Shown here: positions 14,396 through 45,878 of the stretch, one piece after another
How positions within the stretch are numbered: position 1 is the first letter of the stretch
How the letters are laid out: the number at the start of each line of letters is the position of its first letter
Assembly: GCF_000023325.1 (NCBI RefSeq)
Contig: NC_012785.1
Span: forward strand, 310,001 to 374,000
Length of the DNA stretch: 64,000 nt
Direction of reading: 5' to 3'
Origin: Kosmotoga olearia TBF 19.5.1
Lineage (GTDB): Bacteria; Thermotogota; Thermotogae; Petrotogales; Kosmotogaceae
Position numbers and translations under genes: made by a program
The notes under the pieces: model-generated
The model's input: only the letters and a program-made list of their open reading frames with translations
The model's database searches: none
What the model was told of the DNA's origin: nothing

Positions 14396-15628
14396 ATGAA
14401 GAAAGTACAAACGTCTAAAAAAAGCCTTTCTCAGTTTATTGATGTAGTGGGAGAAAAAAAGATCGATGAAATTGTGTCGCTAGCCAGTGAGCTTAAAGGT
14501 CTCCGGGTTTTGCATATAAACGCCACATCATTTGGAGGCGGTGTCGCTGAAATTTTGCATACCCTTGTACCTCTTATGAATAATGTTGGTTTGAAAGTTG
14601 ACTGGATGGTTTTGGATGGAAGTAACGACTTTTTCGATTTTACAAAAAAAATGCACAACTCCCTTCAGGGCAAAGAGGGAACAATAAGCGAAGAAGAAAA
14701 GAAGCTGTTTTTAAGGATAAACAAAGCAAATGCGCAAAGCTTGAAAGAAGTAGATTATAATGTAATCATTATACATGACCCACAGCCCATTGCCGTACCA
14801 AAGTTTGTGGATTTCCAGGATACTAAGCTGATCTGGAGATGTCACATAGATACTTCCACACCAAACGAAGAATTCGTCGAATTCTTGAACTCATTTGTTG
14901 AATATTATGATGCCAGTATTTTCACTTTGAAACGTTACGCCGGCAAGCTTAGATTCAGAAAAATTTACGAAATTCCACCATCTATAGACCCGCTGAGTCC
15001 TAAAAACAGAGAACTAACCCCCAACGAATTAAAGGCATCGATCGATAAATTAAAAGTCGATACAAATCGCCCTTTAATAACCCAGGTGTCCCGCTTTGAC
15101 CCGTGGAAAGATCCAACGGGCGTGGTAGATGTTTATAGAGAGCTCAAAAAAGAGCTGAAAGACCTGCAGCTTTTGATGATCGGTTCTATGGCGTCAGATG
15201 ATCCGGAAGGCTGGACCATGTACGAAGAGCTTCTCAGATACATCGGGAGAGATTATGACGTGAAAGTACTTACAAATTTTCACGGTATTGAGAGTATCGA
15301 AGTGAATGCTGCACAAAGAATCAGTGATGTTGTCCTTCAAAAATCAATTAGAGAGGGATTTGCATTAACCGTAAGTGAAGCTCTCTGGAAGGAAACCCCC
15401 GTCGTTGGTGGAAATGTTGGAGGTATCCCAACCCAGATTTCGCATGGAGTGAACGGTTACCTCGTCAACAACATAGAAGAAGCTGTCGAATATACCAAAA
15501 TACTTTTAACGGATGAAACCCTGAGAAAGGAAATGGGCAAAAAAGGTAAGGATATTGTTAAAGAAAAATTTCTTATTACCCGTCATTTGCTGGATTACCT
15601 GAAGCTTTTTAGAGATTTGGTTAAATGA
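14396..15628 (+). CDS. treT: Trehalose glycosyltransferring synthase (GT4)
   Basis: 410 residues, ATG behind GAAGGAGGAAATTGA. It joins nucleotide-activated glucose to free glucose to give trehalose, or runs in reverse. The sequence is collinear with the archaeal and Thermotoga enzymes as I remember them: HINATSFGGGVAEILHTLVPLMNNVGLKVDW (40-70), IIHDPQPIA (about 128), WRCHIDTS (about 148), ITQVSRFDPWKDP (about 228) and the GT4 C-terminal EGFALTVSEALWKETPVVGGNVGG (about 323-346) containing the Ex7E donor-binding motif. Trehalose may be a compatible solute or a carbon source; the sugar ABC operon on the facing strand could import it. No terminator hairpin is obvious directly after the stop; the repeat region follows. 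Confidence 0.93.
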   Translation: MKKVQTSKKSLSQFIDVVGEKKIDEIVSLASELKGLRVLHINATSFGGGVAEILHTLVPLMNNVGLKVDWMVLDGSNDFFDFTKKMHNSLQGKEGTISEEEKKLFLRINKANAQSLKEVDYNVIIIHDPQPIAVPKFVDFQDTKLIWRCHIDTSTPNEEFVEFLNSFVEYYDASIFTLKRYAGKLRFRKIYEIPPSIDPLSPKNRELTPNELKASIDKLKVDTNRPLITQVSRFDPWKDPTGVVDVYRELKKELKDLQLLMIGSMASDDPEGWTMYEELLRYIGRDYDVKVLTNFHGIESIEVNAAQRISDVVLQKSIREGFALTVSEALWKETPVVGGNVGGIPTQISHGVNGYLVNNIEEAVEYTKILLTDETLRKEMGKKGKDIVKEKFLITRHLLDYLKLFRDLVK

Positions 15629-15798
15629 TGCCGCTTCGCGCGGTTGATAAGTGCCTGAGGCGGAAGTGCTGGAGTACGTCCAGGACGCTTGCAGAGGCTG
15701 AGGCTCACAGACGCTGTAAAAAAAAGAGCGAGATTGGATGTTGAAAATTGGAGTTTAGTAAAGATCGGGTTTAGGGTCTAGGGTACAGAAAAAAATAC

Positions 15799-16384
15799 CG
15801 AGAAATCGAGAGCCCGAGAATCCGAGAAAAACAAGACGTTTGCATGACTGTAAAGACAAAAGAGCGAGAATAGATGTTAGAGATCTGATTTTAGTTCAAA
15901 GACGCACTATCGTAGGGACAGAACATGTCCTGCTCATTGTGTTTACAATAATTTGCCGTTGGTTGTCTTTATCATCTCGGATTCTCGGATCTCGGTTTTT
16001 ATACGGCATGCTGTGCCCTTTATCTAACGGTATATATCTAATCAAATGTATGTTTTCATATCCACTAAGGGCAGAACATGTTCTACCCCTACATTAAAAA
16101 CAACAATCTCTTACAGTCTTGCGAGTCTCAACCTCGTAAGTGTCGCTCCATCAGCTAACAGCCTCGCGAGCGTCAAATGTTTTTTCAACTGCGTAGCAGT
16201 TCGTGACAACTCAGAATGAGTTCGTGTCAATCCCGAAGGGATTCGTGTCGCTGCGAAGCAGCTCTCTCGGACTCTCGGTTTCCGGTTTTTACGTACAACC
16301 TACAACGTACAACCCGCAACGATTTTATATTCTCGGACTCTCGGTTCTCGGGTCTCGGATTCTCGTTTTCTCGGATCTCGAGTT
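15799..16384. repeat. CTCGG / CCGAG degenerate repeats
   Basis: The motif CTCGGATTCTCGG and close variants occur at about 15968-15995, 16263-16281 and several times in 16331-16384, and as the reverse complement (CCGAGAATCCGAGA) at about 15810-15833. The same motif, CCGAGAGTCCGAGAG, recurs at about 42788-42802 beside the IS3-like element. Copies vary by single bases, so this is a dispersed, decaying repeat family rather than a clean tandem array. Confidence 0.7.
16142..16278 (+). repeat. Dispersed repeat, intact copy, containing the hairpin array
   Basis: The stretch from GTCGCTCCATCAGC to GGACTCTCGG recurs in reverse orientation around 42788-42822 plus 44240-44344, where it is split by the IS3-like element. 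Comparing 16142-16245 with the reverse complement of 44240-44344, I see a single clear difference (TAACAG against TGACAG). Four hairpin units lie in 16187-16262: AACTGC-GTA-GCAGTT, AACTCA-GAA-TGAGTT, AATCCC-GAA-GGGATT and GCTGC-GAA-GCAGC, with loops at 16193, 16214, 16235 and 16255. Confidence 0.85.
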
Positions 16385-16385
16385 T

Positions 16386-17540
16386 TTATCCCTTATTCCC
16401 AACTTTTATCCTGGAACTTATATATTTTCTCAACAGCAAAAACGCAGCTCCCTTTTCCCAGGATTCTGGATCAGTTATACGCATGATTTCAGGCTTTATT
16501 TCCCAACCATCTTCTATATTGAGATGGATAGATTTGACGATATCGTTAAAGATCCATTCTGAAACAATCCCTTCACCGCCGATCCACAAGATTGCCGGCC
16601 TTAGCGACAGAACTAAATTCGACAGATAATAAGACAAACTTTTTATTATGCGTTCATATTCCTGCAGTCTTTCTTCTTTTTTTGCCTTCTCTCTAAATTG
16701 ATTTATAATCGGTCTAAAAAGGTCAAAGTTGGCAACAAAATTGCCGATACTACCCGCTCTTTCTTTCACAAGAACATACTCTGAGGCCACAGTTTCAAGA
16801 CATCCAATACGTCCACAATAACACTTCTCACCATCAGGGTCGACTCCATGGTGGCCAAACTCAAAGGCCGTTTTTCCATCACTCCCAACGAATATATCCT
16901 GACCATCATAATAAGACGCGCCTATCCCCACACCAAAACTCACGGTCAGCGAAGATTTGTTTATTATTCCGGATTCCACGATTTGACCAATATGCAAAGC
17001 ATCAACATCGTTGCACATAACGAATTCCGAAAGGGCCAACTTAGAAATAACGGGTTCAAAATCAAAATTTCTAAGGTTCAATATGGGCGATTTTATTATC
17101 CTTTTGCTTTTTAAATCAACTGTTCCCGAAACCGCAAACCCGGCTCCGACAGGTTTATAATGCTCAACAAATCTTTTTAGTTCGCTTATTACATCCGGTA
17201 TTGATTTGCCAATTTCATGTAACGGATATTCTATCGAGTCAATTTTTTTCAAGGAGAAATCAAAAACTATTGCCCGAAGAGATTCGCGCCCCAATTTAAC
17301 ACCAAAAACCGTTCCGTGTTCAGGATTTAATGAAACCACATGATTCGGCCTTCCCCTGCCACCGGCAATTTTTTCTATTCTGATCATCTCTAACTTCGTT
17401 AGTTCGTTCAACAGATAACTCAGAGTTGAATTTCTTATTTTCATTTTTTCTGTTAATTCTTTTCTTAAAACACGCTTGCCAGCGTAAAGAAAGTCCAGCA
17501 ATTTTGTAAGATTGTCCCAACGAATCTCTTCGATTTTCAC
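16386..17540 (-). CDS. ROK-family transcriptional regulator (NagC/XylR type)
   Basis: 384 residues; GTG start behind GGGGGAATCAGT. An N-terminal winged helix (about 10-65, LTKLLDFLYAGKRVLRKELTEKMKIRNSTLSYLLNELTKL) is joined to a ROK sugar-kinase fold. The ROK zinc motif is visible as the HHGVDPDGEKCYCGRIGCLETVAS segment near residues 235-258. Such proteins bind sugars or sugar phosphates and repress transport operons. It follows the permease genes by 26 bases on the same strand, as the last gene of the sugar ABC operon, which it probably controls. The last codons lie within the CTCGG repeat region. Confidence 0.92.
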   Translation of the reverse strand: MKIEEIRWDNLTKLLDFLYAGKRVLRKELTEKMKIRNSTLSYLLNELTKLEMIRIEKIAGGRGRPNHVVSLNPEHGTVFGVKLGRESLRAIVFDFSLKKIDSIEYPLHEIGKSIPDVISELKRFVEHYKPVGAGFAVSGTVDLKSKRIIKSPILNLRNFDFEPVISKLALSEFVMCNDVDALHIGQIVESGIINKSSLTVSFGVGIGASYYDGQDIFVGSDGKTAFEFGHHGVDPDGEKCYCGRIGCLETVASEYVLVKERAGSIGNFVANFDLFRPIINQFREKAKKEERLQEYERIIKSLSYYLSNLVLSLRPAILWIGGEGIVSEWIFNDIVKSIHLNIEDGWEIKPEIMRITDPESWEKGAAFLLLRKYISSRIKVGNKG

Positions 17541-42732: not shown

Positions 42733-42780
42733 GTTGGGACCGAGAAAAAGCGTTGCGGGTTGTGCGTAAATATCAAGAAA

Positions 42781-42822
42781 CGAGATTCCGAGAGTCCGAG
42801 AGAGCTGCTTCGCAGTGTCACG
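42781..42822 (-). repeat. Dispersed repeat, second copy, first fragment left of the IS
   Basis: The reverse complement of 42788-42822 matches about 16242-16278 of the intact copy (CTGCGAAGCAGCTCTCTCGG region), with three changes near the IS junction. Further left, CGTTGCGGGTTGTGCGT (42751-42767) matches ACGTACAACCCGCAACG at 16304-16320. Confidence 0.75.
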
Positions 42823-42893
42823 CGTAATCACCCCCTAAAGAAATAGGACAAGAGATAACGAAGTGATAGTATGAAAGAAGAGGGGGCGAAGGG

Positions 42894-43271
42894 ATGAGAG
42901 GCAGAGAACAATATTCAATGGAATTGAAGCTAAAAGTGGTAAAGGAATACGAAGAGGGCCACAAAAACACAAGAGAAATCAGGGAAGAATACGGGATACC
43001 GGATTCTACATTATGGGGTTGGATAAACAAATATAGAGCGGAGGGAGAAAGTGCTTTTGAACCGAAACTCAGAGCTGGAGATTTCATTGTTGATCCAACG
43101 AAGATACCACCTGTTCTGTACAAAGAGATAGGGCTTGACAAGATAAAGAAAGACCCAAAAGAGCTAAAAGGGGTTCTCAACGAAATCGAGAAATACAAAC
43201 TCATAATAGCAGAGAAAGAATTGGAAATAAGGTTGCTAAAAGAAGCTCTAAAAAAAACTGGAAAAGGCTAG
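42894..43271 (+). CDS. IS3-like transposase OrfA (helix-turn-helix)
   Basis: 125 residues. REQYSMELKLKVVKEYEEGHKNTREIREEYGIPDSTLWGWINKYRAEGESAF (about 4-55) is an IS3-type helix-turn-helix, followed by a leucine-zipper-like C-terminal helix (IEKYKLIIAEKELEIRLLKEALKK). The gene ends just after a run of eight As (43250-43257), CTCTAAAAAAAACTGG, a likely slippery site for -1 frameshifting into orfB. ATG has AAGGG upstream. Confidence 0.88.
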   Translation: MRGREQYSMELKLKVVKEYEEGHKNTREIREEYGIPDSTLWGWINKYRAEGESAFEPKLRAGDFIVDPTKIPPVLYKEIGLDKIKKDPKELKGVLNEIEKYKLIIAEKELEIRLLKEALKKTGKG

Positions 43272-43297
43272 CAGTTGAACTTTTCGCTGAAACATAT

Positions 43298-44200
43298 ATG
43301 GGTTATGGTTTTTCAACCTCTTATCTTTTGAGAATCTTTGGAATAACCAGAAGCAGTTACTATCGCAGGAAGAAACCCGTGTTCTTTCTCAAAAAGACAA
43401 AACCAGGTAGAAGGCGCAATTACTGTCTAAAGACAAACGGTGAAAAGTTCGAAGATAAAGAGCTTGAAAAACTACTCAAAGGCATATACAGCAGAGTGAA
43501 TCCATATGAACCTGAGTATTATCTGAAAGTATTAGGAAGCAAGAAGCTCAGCAAGTATTTTCTGAATGAATTTGGGATAATAGTGAACCACAAGAAAGTA
43601 CACAGAATGAGAAAGAAGCTGGGATATGTCAGGAAATACTGGCCGAAACAGCACCATCCTGTTAGGCGCTCAACCCAGCATGAGATAGACAGGACAGGAA
43701 TACTGTGGGAAGCAGATATTAAGTACATAACCACAATACAGGAAGGGAATATAGCCTTATTGGACATAATAGATGTATATTCAAGGGAAATAGTGGGTTC
43801 ATATCTTGGGAAGAGTTGCAAGTGCAAAGATTTTACCCGAACACTGGGAAGGGCAATGCTTTACCAGGAAACGGTACCTCAGTTGGTCCGTACGGATAAT
43901 GGAAGCCTGTTTACAGCTAATTACACCCGGGAATATTTTGAAAAGAACGAGATAATCCAGGAATTTGGGATAAAGCACCACCCTGATTCCCAGGCCTTTA
44001 TTGAATCACAGCATTCGAATGTGCAAAGGGAATTTGTGGCTATGAATGTGTTTGAGAGAGCGGAAGACGTTTACCGGAAATACCAGGTGTACATGGATTT
44101 CTATCATAATCTCAGACCACATGGTTCTTTGAAATACATGACACCACAAGCCTTTAAGAAACACTGTAGCATTTCCATGATTCAGTCTGTTAAAGCTTGA
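43298..44200 (+). CDS. IS3-like transposase OrfB (DDE integrase)
   Basis: 300 residues from the first ATG; the frame is open back to the A-run at 43250, so the working product is probably an OrfAB fusion by -1 frameshift. The rve core shows ILWEADIKYITT (first D), LVRTDNGSLF (second D) and AFIESQHSNVQREF (E), all in order, so it looks intact. Starts near MGYGFSTSYLLRIFGITRSSYYRRK, typical for OrfB. Confidence 0.9.
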   Translation: MGYGFSTSYLLRIFGITRSSYYRRKKPVFFLKKTKPGRRRNYCLKTNGEKFEDKELEKLLKGIYSRVNPYEPEYYLKVLGSKKLSKYFLNEFGIIVNHKKVHRMRKKLGYVRKYWPKQHHPVRRSTQHEIDRTGILWEADIKYITTIQEGNIALLDIIDVYSREIVGSYLGKSCKCKDFTRTLGRAMLYQETVPQLVRTDNGSLFTANYTREYFEKNEIIQEFGIKHHPDSQAFIESQHSNVQREFVAMNVFERAEDVYRKYQVYMDFYHNLRPHGSLKYMTPQAFKKHCSISMIQSVKA

Positions 44201-44239
44201 TCTCGTTAACCCGTGTCTCATTATTGGGGGTCAGACCGC

Positions 44240-44344
44240 ACGAATCCCTTCGGGATTGACACGAACTCATTCTGAGTTGTCACGAACTGCTACGCAGTTG
44301 AAAAAACATTTGACGCTCGCGAGGCTGTCAGCTGATGGAGCGAC
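44240..44344 (-). repeat. Dispersed repeat, second copy, fragment right of the IS
   Basis: Reverse complement equals 16142-16245 with a single difference that I can see. Contains three of the hairpin units (CGAATCCC-TTC-GGGATTG, GAACTCA-TTC-TGAGTTG, GAACTGC-TAC-GCAGTTG). Confidence 0.88.
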
Positions 44345-44523
44345 GATAAAGACGGCTGTAGGTTGTACGGGAAGAACACCCTTTTGAAAAGAGCGGCTAT
44401 AGGGTTGGGGTCTGGGGTTTGAAAAAGATACGCACAACGCACAACCTGTAACCAACAACCATAACTAGCCCTGCATCATTCGCGTCAGCGAATCTAACCC
44501 CATTTCCCGCTAGGGATACGTAA
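44345..44523. other. Repeat debris between the two insertion sequences
   Basis: Non-coding. Includes GGGTTGGGGTCTGGGGTTT, similar to GGGTTTAGGGTCTAGGGT near 15768-15785, a TTGTAC/CGTACAACC-type repeat, and two further palindromes, ATTCGC-GTCA-GCGAAT (44478-44493) and TCCC-GCTA-GGGA (44505-44516). Confidence 0.6.
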
Positions 44524-45878
44524 TGCCTCAAAAATAAATCTACTTGAAATAGATTGGATGCCTCAAAATAAAATCTACTTAAAATTGAGAGGGACATAGT
44601 TGAGGATCCCTCCTTTCGATTTGTCAATCTGGATGCTCAGTAATTGCTCTTGCAAATGTGTTATTATACTCTTGAGTTTGTAAATGTCTAGGGCTTCGTG
44701 TTGTCTGCGAAGCCTGTCTTTTTTATCTTGGTCAACCCAGGGAGATCGCATGATCCTTTCGTATGGTGTAGTAGGGCGGTCGTATTTTTTGCTTACCTTG
44801 TTTCCTTTTCTAATTTTCTCAATGATTTTCTGATTTGGCTGAAAATGATTATTGTACAGATTCAGAGACGCATACAACTCCTTTAGTATTTGGAATTCTT
44901 CCTCTGTGTCGTATCTGTAATATCCAACGGCTCTTCTTACAACAGACCAGTTCTTTTGTTCGACATGACAATTATCATTCTTGTTGTAACTCCGGGTTCT
45001 GGTGAATAGAAGCCCTTCATCTTCACAATAACGGTATATGTGTCTATTAATAAATTCTGATCCGTTATCTGAGTGAATACCTAATAAAGTGAAGGGAAGC
45101 GTTTTCCTCAACTGAATTATAGCTTTTAATGTCCAAATTTGCGCTTTGTTTCTTATTGGTGCCACTACACTCCAACCACTTGCTACATCTACCATGTTGA
45201 GGCTGTAGCAAAAATCACCACTTACACTCCCGCCATCATGCCCAACGAGGTCAATCTCAACAAAGCCTGGTCTTGTATCGTCCCACTCGTAATGTGTTTT
45301 TATTCGTATGTGCTTTTTCAGAAGTGTTCCGGGCTTTGTATGAGATCGTCCTTTGAGTTCCATCTTTTTCCTCTCGCTGGATAACAATCTATCGATAGTG
45401 GAAGCACTTATGCTGAGAAGCTTCCTCTTTGTTTCTTCAGCCAATGTTAGATGCCCATTACGAACAAGATTATCTATTACTTCGTCCATCACTGCTTCGA
45501 GCCTTTTACCACATGGAAAATCCATTATCTCCCATATCTTCACGAGTTTCACGAAGACTTTGTGATCATATTTTTTCTTTCGACCTTTTTTCTGGCTGGG
45601 TGAGGTTGCCTTTCGCTTTTTCAAGGCTCCTCGTAGTAAAAACGATGCGTAACTACGATTATACTTGGTAACTCGGGTGAATTCATCTAGAATCTCGGAT
45701 TTTTCTTTTTTGCGAGCTTTTCTGTACCTTTTTGAATACTCCTTCACCACATTTTTCATATCCAGCCTCTTCATCTTCTCGCCTACCTTCTTTGGTATTC
45801 GAGAAGATTATCCCTCTTTTTCGAGTAGATTTATTTTTGACGCAACGTTCCCTTTTCGAGTAGATTTTTTATGAGGCA
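44524..45878 (-). mobile_element. Insertion sequence with doubled terminal repeats, about 1355 bases
   Basis: Left end TGCCTCAAAAATAAATCTAC at 44524 and again TGCCTCAAAATAAAATCTAC at 44559; right end, as reverse complement, TGCCTCATAAAAAATCTACT ending at 45878 and TGCGTCAAAAATAAATCTAC ending at 45844. The two copies are 35 and 34 bases apart, so each end carries two tandem transposase-binding-like sites. It holds one transposase gene. No target duplication was found with these limits, so the outer boundary may be slightly different. Confidence 0.82.
44575..45774 (-). CDS. IS transposase, DDE integrase-core type
   Basis: 399 residues. N-terminal charged helix-turn-helix region (KNVVKEYSKRYRKARKKEKSEILDEFTRVTKYNRSYASFLLRG). 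The rve-type catalytic core: GFVEIDLVGHDGG (first D), LLGIHSDNGSEFIN (second D) and NDNCHVEQKNWSVVRR (E). All three acidic residues are present and the frame is intact. C-terminal region contains RLRRQHEALDIYKLK. Family resembles unclassified rve transposases common in Thermotogota and Firmicutes; not IS3 by lack of an orfA. ATG at 45774 is preceded by a weak site (AAGATGAAG). Confidence 0.86.
   Translation of the reverse strand: MKRLDMKNVVKEYSKRYRKARKKEKSEILDEFTRVTKYNRSYASFLLRGALKKRKATSPSQKKGRKKKYDHKVFVKLVKIWEIMDFPCGKRLEAVMDEVIDNLVRNGHLTLAEETKRKLLSISASTIDRLLSSERKKMELKGRSHTKPGTLLKKHIRIKTHYEWDDTRPGFVEIDLVGHDGGSVSGDFCYSLNMVDVASGWSVVAPIRNKAQIWTLKAIIQLRKTLPFTLLGIHSDNGSEFINRHIYRYCEDEGLLFTRTRSYNKNDNCHVEQKNWSVVRRAVGYYRYDTEEEFQILKELYASLNLYNNHFQPNQKIIEKIRKGNKVSKKYDRPTTPYERIMRSPWVDQDKKDRLRRQHEALDIYKLKSIITHLQEQLLSIQIDKSKGGILNYVPLNFK

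Follow-up and report, generated by a model that had tools for sequence, protein, structure and literature searches.

Ordered arrays of 21-nt hairpins between genes of Kosmotoga olearia: a probable REP/BIME-like mosaic element

What maintains a row of neighbouring hairpins whose stems differ from one to the next while each remains self-complementary? The question is raised by a locus of the heat-loving Kosmotoga olearia TBF 19.5.1 lying in a 64,000-nt stretch of the chromosome (contig NC_012785.1, positions 310,001 to 374,000; hereafter the window, whose coordinates are used below). A sequence-only reading had described a four-hairpin array at 16187-16262, and its stems, loops and positions are all as claimed, with loop centres 21, 21 and 20 nt apart. 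On the + strand the array consists of unit A (AACTGC-GTA-GCAGTT, 16187-16201), a type that recurs in dozens of aligned copies; linker CGTGAC (16202-16207); unit D2 (AACTCA-GAA-TGAGTT, 16208-16222); linker CGTGTC (16223-16228); unit E (AATCCC-GAA-GGGATT, 16229-16243); a second linker CGTGTC (16244-16249); and the last unit, F (GCTGC-GAA-GCAGC, 16250-16262). As in most arrays, the CTCTCGG satellite comes next, and (CTCTCGG)n and (CAACCTA)n words make up the 3' satellites of the composite element (16263-16380, + strand). The constant joiner TTCGTG proposed earlier does not hold, since TT is part of the stem and the linker follows the consensus C-G-N-N-N-C, with a variable middle. The loop is conserved in its outer G and A (G-N-A), but its middle base is free.

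The window holds further pieces of the same material. A 106-nt segment comprising 5' mosaic words and units A, D2 and E (16142-16247, + strand) has an inverted duplicate at 44239-44344 with 99% identity, confirming the three-unit reverse copy noticed before at 44240-44344. This second array (44243-44299, - strand; A at 44285-44299, D2 at 44264-44278, E at 44243-44257) lacks unit F: an IS3-like element, which has HTH and rve domains, interrupts it at the E/F boundary. A fragment at 42778-42822 (- strand; 87% to 16244-16288) contains unit F, with its outer pair broken, and CTCTCGG satellite. Within the region 42778-45850, the second array sits between the IS3-like element (42894-44200) and another rve transposase (44575-45774), which has 30-bp terminal inverted repeats (44524-44553 and 45815-45844). 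Two weaker chains had also been compared with the array. The one at 15631-15717 (- strand) is a related module, CTGGAC-GTA-CTCCAG followed by CACTTC, but it is decayed, in reverse orientation and broken at the closing pair; its word is found 5' of arrays elsewhere. The other, given as 44478-44516, is not a similar array: 44478-44493 contains another repeat word, whose loop has 4 nt. At 15740-16420 and at many other loci, dense word-like intergenic satellites, namely (CTCTCGG)n, (CAACCTA)n, CTAGGGTCTAGGG-type words and GGGCAGAACATGTTCTGCCC, abut at precise module boundaries.

The K. olearia genome is a single contig of 2,302,126 bp. A five-unit covariance model has 123 matches there at E<=0.001, the window array among them; six of the 123 loci were used to build it. 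The array is thus not a single duplication limited to one strain, given these 123 loci and its presence in sister genera. Hairpin spacing was analysed, with no sequence assumption, in a 464-kb sample made up of the window and 20 further stretches of 20 kb at even spacing. The sample contains 280 perfect 6-bp/3-nt hairpins, against 160 in a Markov control. Neighbouring hairpins are 21 nt apart in 35 cases, 42 nt in 17 and 63 nt in six, any other spacing up to 64 nt being seen at most once; the control has at most one pair at any spacing. GNA loops (TNC on the opposite strand) account for 92 of the 280 hairpins and for 17 of the 160 in the control. Hairpin arrays of the window type are far beyond chance, and thirty arrays of at least two units occur in the sample.

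Each 21-nt repeat combines a 15-nt hairpin, with a 6-bp stem and a GNA triloop, and a 6-nt spacer, C-N4-C. Besides the window family, other K. olearia families share this 15+6 design with linkers CTTACC/CTCACC, CATAGC/CATGGC or CACTTC, and a C stands at both ends of every linker in all array families. At least eight stem types follow a single recurring order, H-A-B-C-(D or G)-E-F, of which individual arrays, with up to eight different modules, are subsets; across 72 arrays, 418 pairs of types are in this order and 7 are reversed. The GNA strand is uniform within each array, so that units run head-to-tail rather than alternating or head-to-head. The 3' end runs into the CTCTCGG satellite, and at least five different words abut the 5' edge of unit A. 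The arrays are uneven along the chromosome, with 45 at genome positions 1.2-1.5 Mb and two at 1.6-1.9 Mb.

The fixed order across the genome bears out the view that the array is not CRISPR-like, the variable segments recurring from locus to locus. A guide-RNA array of the TIGR or CRISPR type can be given next to no credence. There is a superficial likeness, in that two variable segments flank a constant loop, and stem-loop TIGR arrays, which are tandem and have variable palindromic parts, do exist (PMC12045711). However, TIGR arrays depend on box C/D motifs and on a Tas protein with a Nop domain (PMC12045711), and no protein with this domain (PF01798) is present in the K. olearia genome, which rules out this identity. 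Furthermore, the arms of a hairpin pair with each other, and the same "spacers" stand at more than 100 loci in fixed order.

The loop rule extends to the pair that closes it. Only types D/D2 depart from a C-G pair here, and in 15 of 16 copies these have a GAA loop. C-GNA-G is an extra-stable DNA minihairpin motif, described by Hirao (1994) and Yoshizawa (1997) according to PMC6479982, with d(GCGAAGC) as an example. These minihairpins have the same C-GNA-G loop with a free middle base, and GAA and GTA loops both occur; they are a physical DNA motif, whereas a genetic element is at issue here. C-GNA-G makes up 27% of intergenic 5-bp/3-nt hairpins in K. olearia, where base composition predicts 3-4%, and 14% in the related genome G020, against 4% in the ORFs of the latter. 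Folded as DNA, the array is more stable than shuffled sequences on both strands (z -2.9 and -3.2); folded as RNA it is weakly better (z -1.2 and -2.1). The loop motif and these folding predictions are suggestive of arrays that act at the DNA rather than the RNA level. The arrays would be an unusually clear natural use of a GNA DNA minihairpin that has until now been mostly a laboratory oligonucleotide motif.

Some REPs protect or terminate transcripts, and a transcribed chain of hairpins might do likewise. Placement of 121 arrays relative to codon-scored gene calls bears on this reading, which we regard as distinctly unlikely. There are 114 intergenic arrays among the 121, and gaps between convergent genes are enriched for them (37/114 vs 42/244, p=0.0016), as a transcript-level role might lead one to expect; hairpins could also fold from either strand. 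The enrichment fits simple promoter avoidance equally well, however, and the weak RNA folding tells against such a role. At codirectional genes the array strand has no significant bias (22 same, 33 opposite, p=0.18). This lack of bias and the lack of a T-run (U-tract) after the units exclude an intrinsic terminator or UTR element. Rfam has no match at E<=1 over 15500-16500, by which a known RNA family is ruled out. In 91 of the 114 arrays the F end points toward the nearest gene, regardless of gene direction, so the composite element is polar and the host gene irrelevant. An apparent bias of arrays to the antisense strand at gene 3' ends (57 vs 10) is an artefact of this polarity, the F end being nearer the gene on either side. 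A coding repeat was also rejected, since only small spurious ORFs overlap and, by reasoning, the free loop base would be the second codon position in the open frame. No reliable replication-strand bias emerged: a two-arc permutation test gave p=0.06, and the association with skew had p=0.04 before correction.

How, then, are the palindromes kept? Stem positions match their type consensus at 96-99%, while in the loop the G is at 91%, the A at 100% and the centre at 67%; the linker is fixed at its ends and mixed in its middle (about half conserved). Unit ascertainment favoured stems, but this bias is not the whole cause of stem conservation, because recent copies would have equally uniform loops and linkers, which the observed ones do not. 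Nor would a uniformly decaying copy give conserved stems together with a variable loop centre and linker middle. A pairing-free test took the 15-mers between two core units 42 nt apart, on both strands (22 cases, about 11 places), and these form 5.73 of 6 possible pairs, as compared with 1.46 at off-register controls.

The sequence-only reading had held that stem bases change with matched changes on the other arm. This is true between unit types, where palindromy is complete, but not within copies of a type, where 48 one-arm changes stand against 3 compensated ones. Neighbouring units are accordingly not freshly compensated versions of one another; each is instead a recurrent fixed type. The 3 compensated double changes exceed the roughly 0.2 expected under independence (an estimate from observed rates), yet they are rare. 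That some process keeps the palindromes stands for whole types and fails for continuous compensation at each locus. Since copies decay uncompensated and types are fully palindromic, the palindromes are kept mainly by copying and by constraint on whole types.

Copying might need no dedicated enzyme. A passive repeat could be spread and shuffled by ordinary homologous recombination, by IS- or inversion-borne duplication and by template switching at hairpins, with hairpin-templated correction restoring palindromes. This alternative is fairly unlikely but has several observations on its side: the copies lie in larger mosaics of other repeat words, joined at unit boundaries; the 106-nt inverted duplication in the window stops at an IS; whole-unit indels separate strains; and compensated double changes are in slight excess. 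By itself, however, it does not account for conserved stems with a variable loop centre and linker, or for a C-GNA-G rule common to about 20 stems.

The strain-level indels were found in MAG contigs JARRBB010000088.1 and JASGMR010000122.1, orthologues of the K. olearia 131-kb locus. Their alignment includes a GTA/GAA loop change, a CGTGTC/CGTTAC linker change and a 40-nt indel of exactly two hairpin units, ending at a linker. It also contains stem decay without compensation, an observation that the sequence-only reading had itself named as one that would refute it. Among the best 39 candidates per genome, array-model matches number at least 19 in G019, at least 4 in G020 and at least 4 in G021, all of genus g3; the Mesotoga-like genomes G022, G027 and G028 have one array each, and most other Thermotogota genomes have none. 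Unit order is kept in relatives, for example H-A-B-E-F in G019 and A-C-G-E-F in G020. One unit plus linker, scanned in 84,980 species, occurs only on Thermotogota contigs apart from one isolated unit, the latter a Saccharibacteria match that was rejected as an array. Array contigs under other Thermotogota MAGs are probably misbinned, because they are all but identical to K. olearia or have a neighbouring gene similar to that of K. olearia. Two genes that G020 and K. olearia share at 89-93% nucleotide identity are separated by 69 nt in the former; in the latter the interval is 7.9 kb long and contains several arrays. Two array-bearing loci common to these genomes differ in array composition and have opposite orientation, which indicates turnover. 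Comparisons of array loci revealed no clean empty site with a target duplication. The arrays of G020 and of Mesotoga-like genomes (L160; L162/L163) have in common a near-identical stretch, GTGACACCGGCTTAG..CGTGTCAATCCCGA..GGGATTCGCCCCGCTGC, which suggests transfer between genera.

Such turnover bears on a DNA-level function for the host. A span of 21 bp is two helical turns, and gyrase binding has been proposed for BIMEs; palindromes on one helix face could thus offer docking sites to a DNA-binding protein arranged in tandem, or to gyrase. The exact 21-bp phasing, which several linker families share, and conservation of stem sequence beyond pairing alone would suit this role. It is nevertheless very unlikely, given that unit number and composition vary freely, that arrays are not retained at orthologous places in G020, and that Mesotoga-like genomes have a single, decaying copy.

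The arrays resemble the palindromic repeats of bacterial intergenic regions, of which they seem to be an elaborate and so far undescribed relative; no published description of 21-bp hairpin arrays was found in the open-access literature. Like REP/BIME/REPIN systems with their RAYT (TnpA_REP) partners, they are short intergenic palindromes in more than 100 copies, built into mosaic composites, in a genome that has a RAYT-like gene, and they share the single-stranded hairpin logic (PMC2817692, PMC8266576). In contrast, REPs have a GTAG or CGTC tag at the palindrome foot, which neither the 5' flanks nor the linkers (C-N4-C) of K. olearia arrays contain, and BIMEs alternate copies of one or two REPs, whereas here many stems stand in a uniform head-to-tail 21-bp tandem of fixed order. 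As judged from sequence, the arrays are therefore not filed as REPs as defined, the tag and the head-to-head layout both being absent. According to the CGTC section of PMC3733652, CGTC-3 REPs, single 9-bp-stem palindromes with a CGTC tag, occur in K. olearia and M. prima; they share the species but not the tandem arrangement, and 21-bp arrays do not appear in that section or in keyword passages of the paper. The GTCATCCTGAACTTGATTCAGGAT words beside many arrays fit the described CGTC-3 form, an identification made here. Passages of PMC2800124 describe hairpin-forming repeats of sponge mitochondria that are likewise dispersed, intergenic and sometimes tandem, with conserved stems, variable loops and related types differing by complementary substitutions; these differ in being mitochondrial, and neither 21-bp phasing nor an ordered array of eight types appears in those passages.

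Taken together, the arrays are probably a REP/BIME-like, non-coding, dispersed mosaic element of Kosmotogaceae. The fuller explanation, that such an element is spread and remodelled via single-stranded hairpin DNA, is also favoured, if somewhat more cautiously. Once the DNA is single-stranded, the GNA strand would fold into a chain of very stable hairpins; this hairpin DNA would be recognised or copied during spread, most plausibly by a resident Y1 (HUH, RAYT-type) transposase; and whole units might be lost or swapped when replication skips hairpins or when similar linkers recombine, leaving sub-arrays with order kept. The REP/BIME-like reading is supported by the 123 matches, the fixed order, the sharp 21-nt periodicity, the C-GNA-G excess, stem conservation, intergenic placement, unit-level turnover and adjacency to RAYT-like genes or stubs in some genomes. 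It is weakened by the lack of a GTAG/CGTC tag, by RAYTs without arrays, by the lack of a clean empty site and by the origin of the two K. olearia RAYT copies in one duplication. Recognition of eight different stems by a single enzyme would be unusual, though loop, closing pair and linker ends are common to all. The arrays might alternatively form a distinct element class, ordered hairpins whose common C-GNA-G loop and C-N4-C spacer would let them be read in single-stranded form, the whole chain rather than a lone palindrome being the substrate of a dedicated transposase or having a structural role in the chromosome; we consider this unlikely. In any of these cases the family offers about 120 natural variants per genome, with eight stems under one loop rule, one spacer rule, one spacing and one order. 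Together with sister genomes in which arrays are many, few or single, this makes it possible to tell apart structural constraint, copying and unit loss, which bears on the open question of how intergenic palindromic repeats arise, spread and keep their stems.

The resident Y1 (RAYT-type) transposase is a possible but tentative candidate for the agent of spread, supported by adjacency of RAYT and array in two genera. K. olearia has two RAYT-like Y1 genes, which match NF047646 with E about 1e-18 but score 67-68 bits, below the cut-off of 80. The pair is one duplication, an 839-nt block; array remnants lie in the roughly 80 nt of 3' flank that the block takes in, and at one copy a full array lies about 100 nt past this flank. 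The sole array among the best 39 candidates of G027, and likewise of G028, lies next to a stub of a RAYT 3' end; G022 has a decayed orthologous array and no visible RAYT stub. Other Mesotoga-like genomes have RAYTs and no arrays among their best 39 candidates, and the G020 RAYT has no array at its 3' end. One Mesotoga-like array (L162, 1709-3083) has an AbiE-type toxin-antitoxin pair (AbiEii, PF08843) on one side and the RAYT stub on the other. Three other Mesotoga-like RAYT genes (L112, L114, L116) have single C-GNA-G hairpins in their 3' flanks. Finally, a palindromic element, AAAATGGGGAC...GTCCCCATTTT, is found beside RAYT/phosphotransferase genes in K. olearia and G020 (L034, 860-960; L117, about 1050-1100), and may be the RAYT's own terminal repeat.
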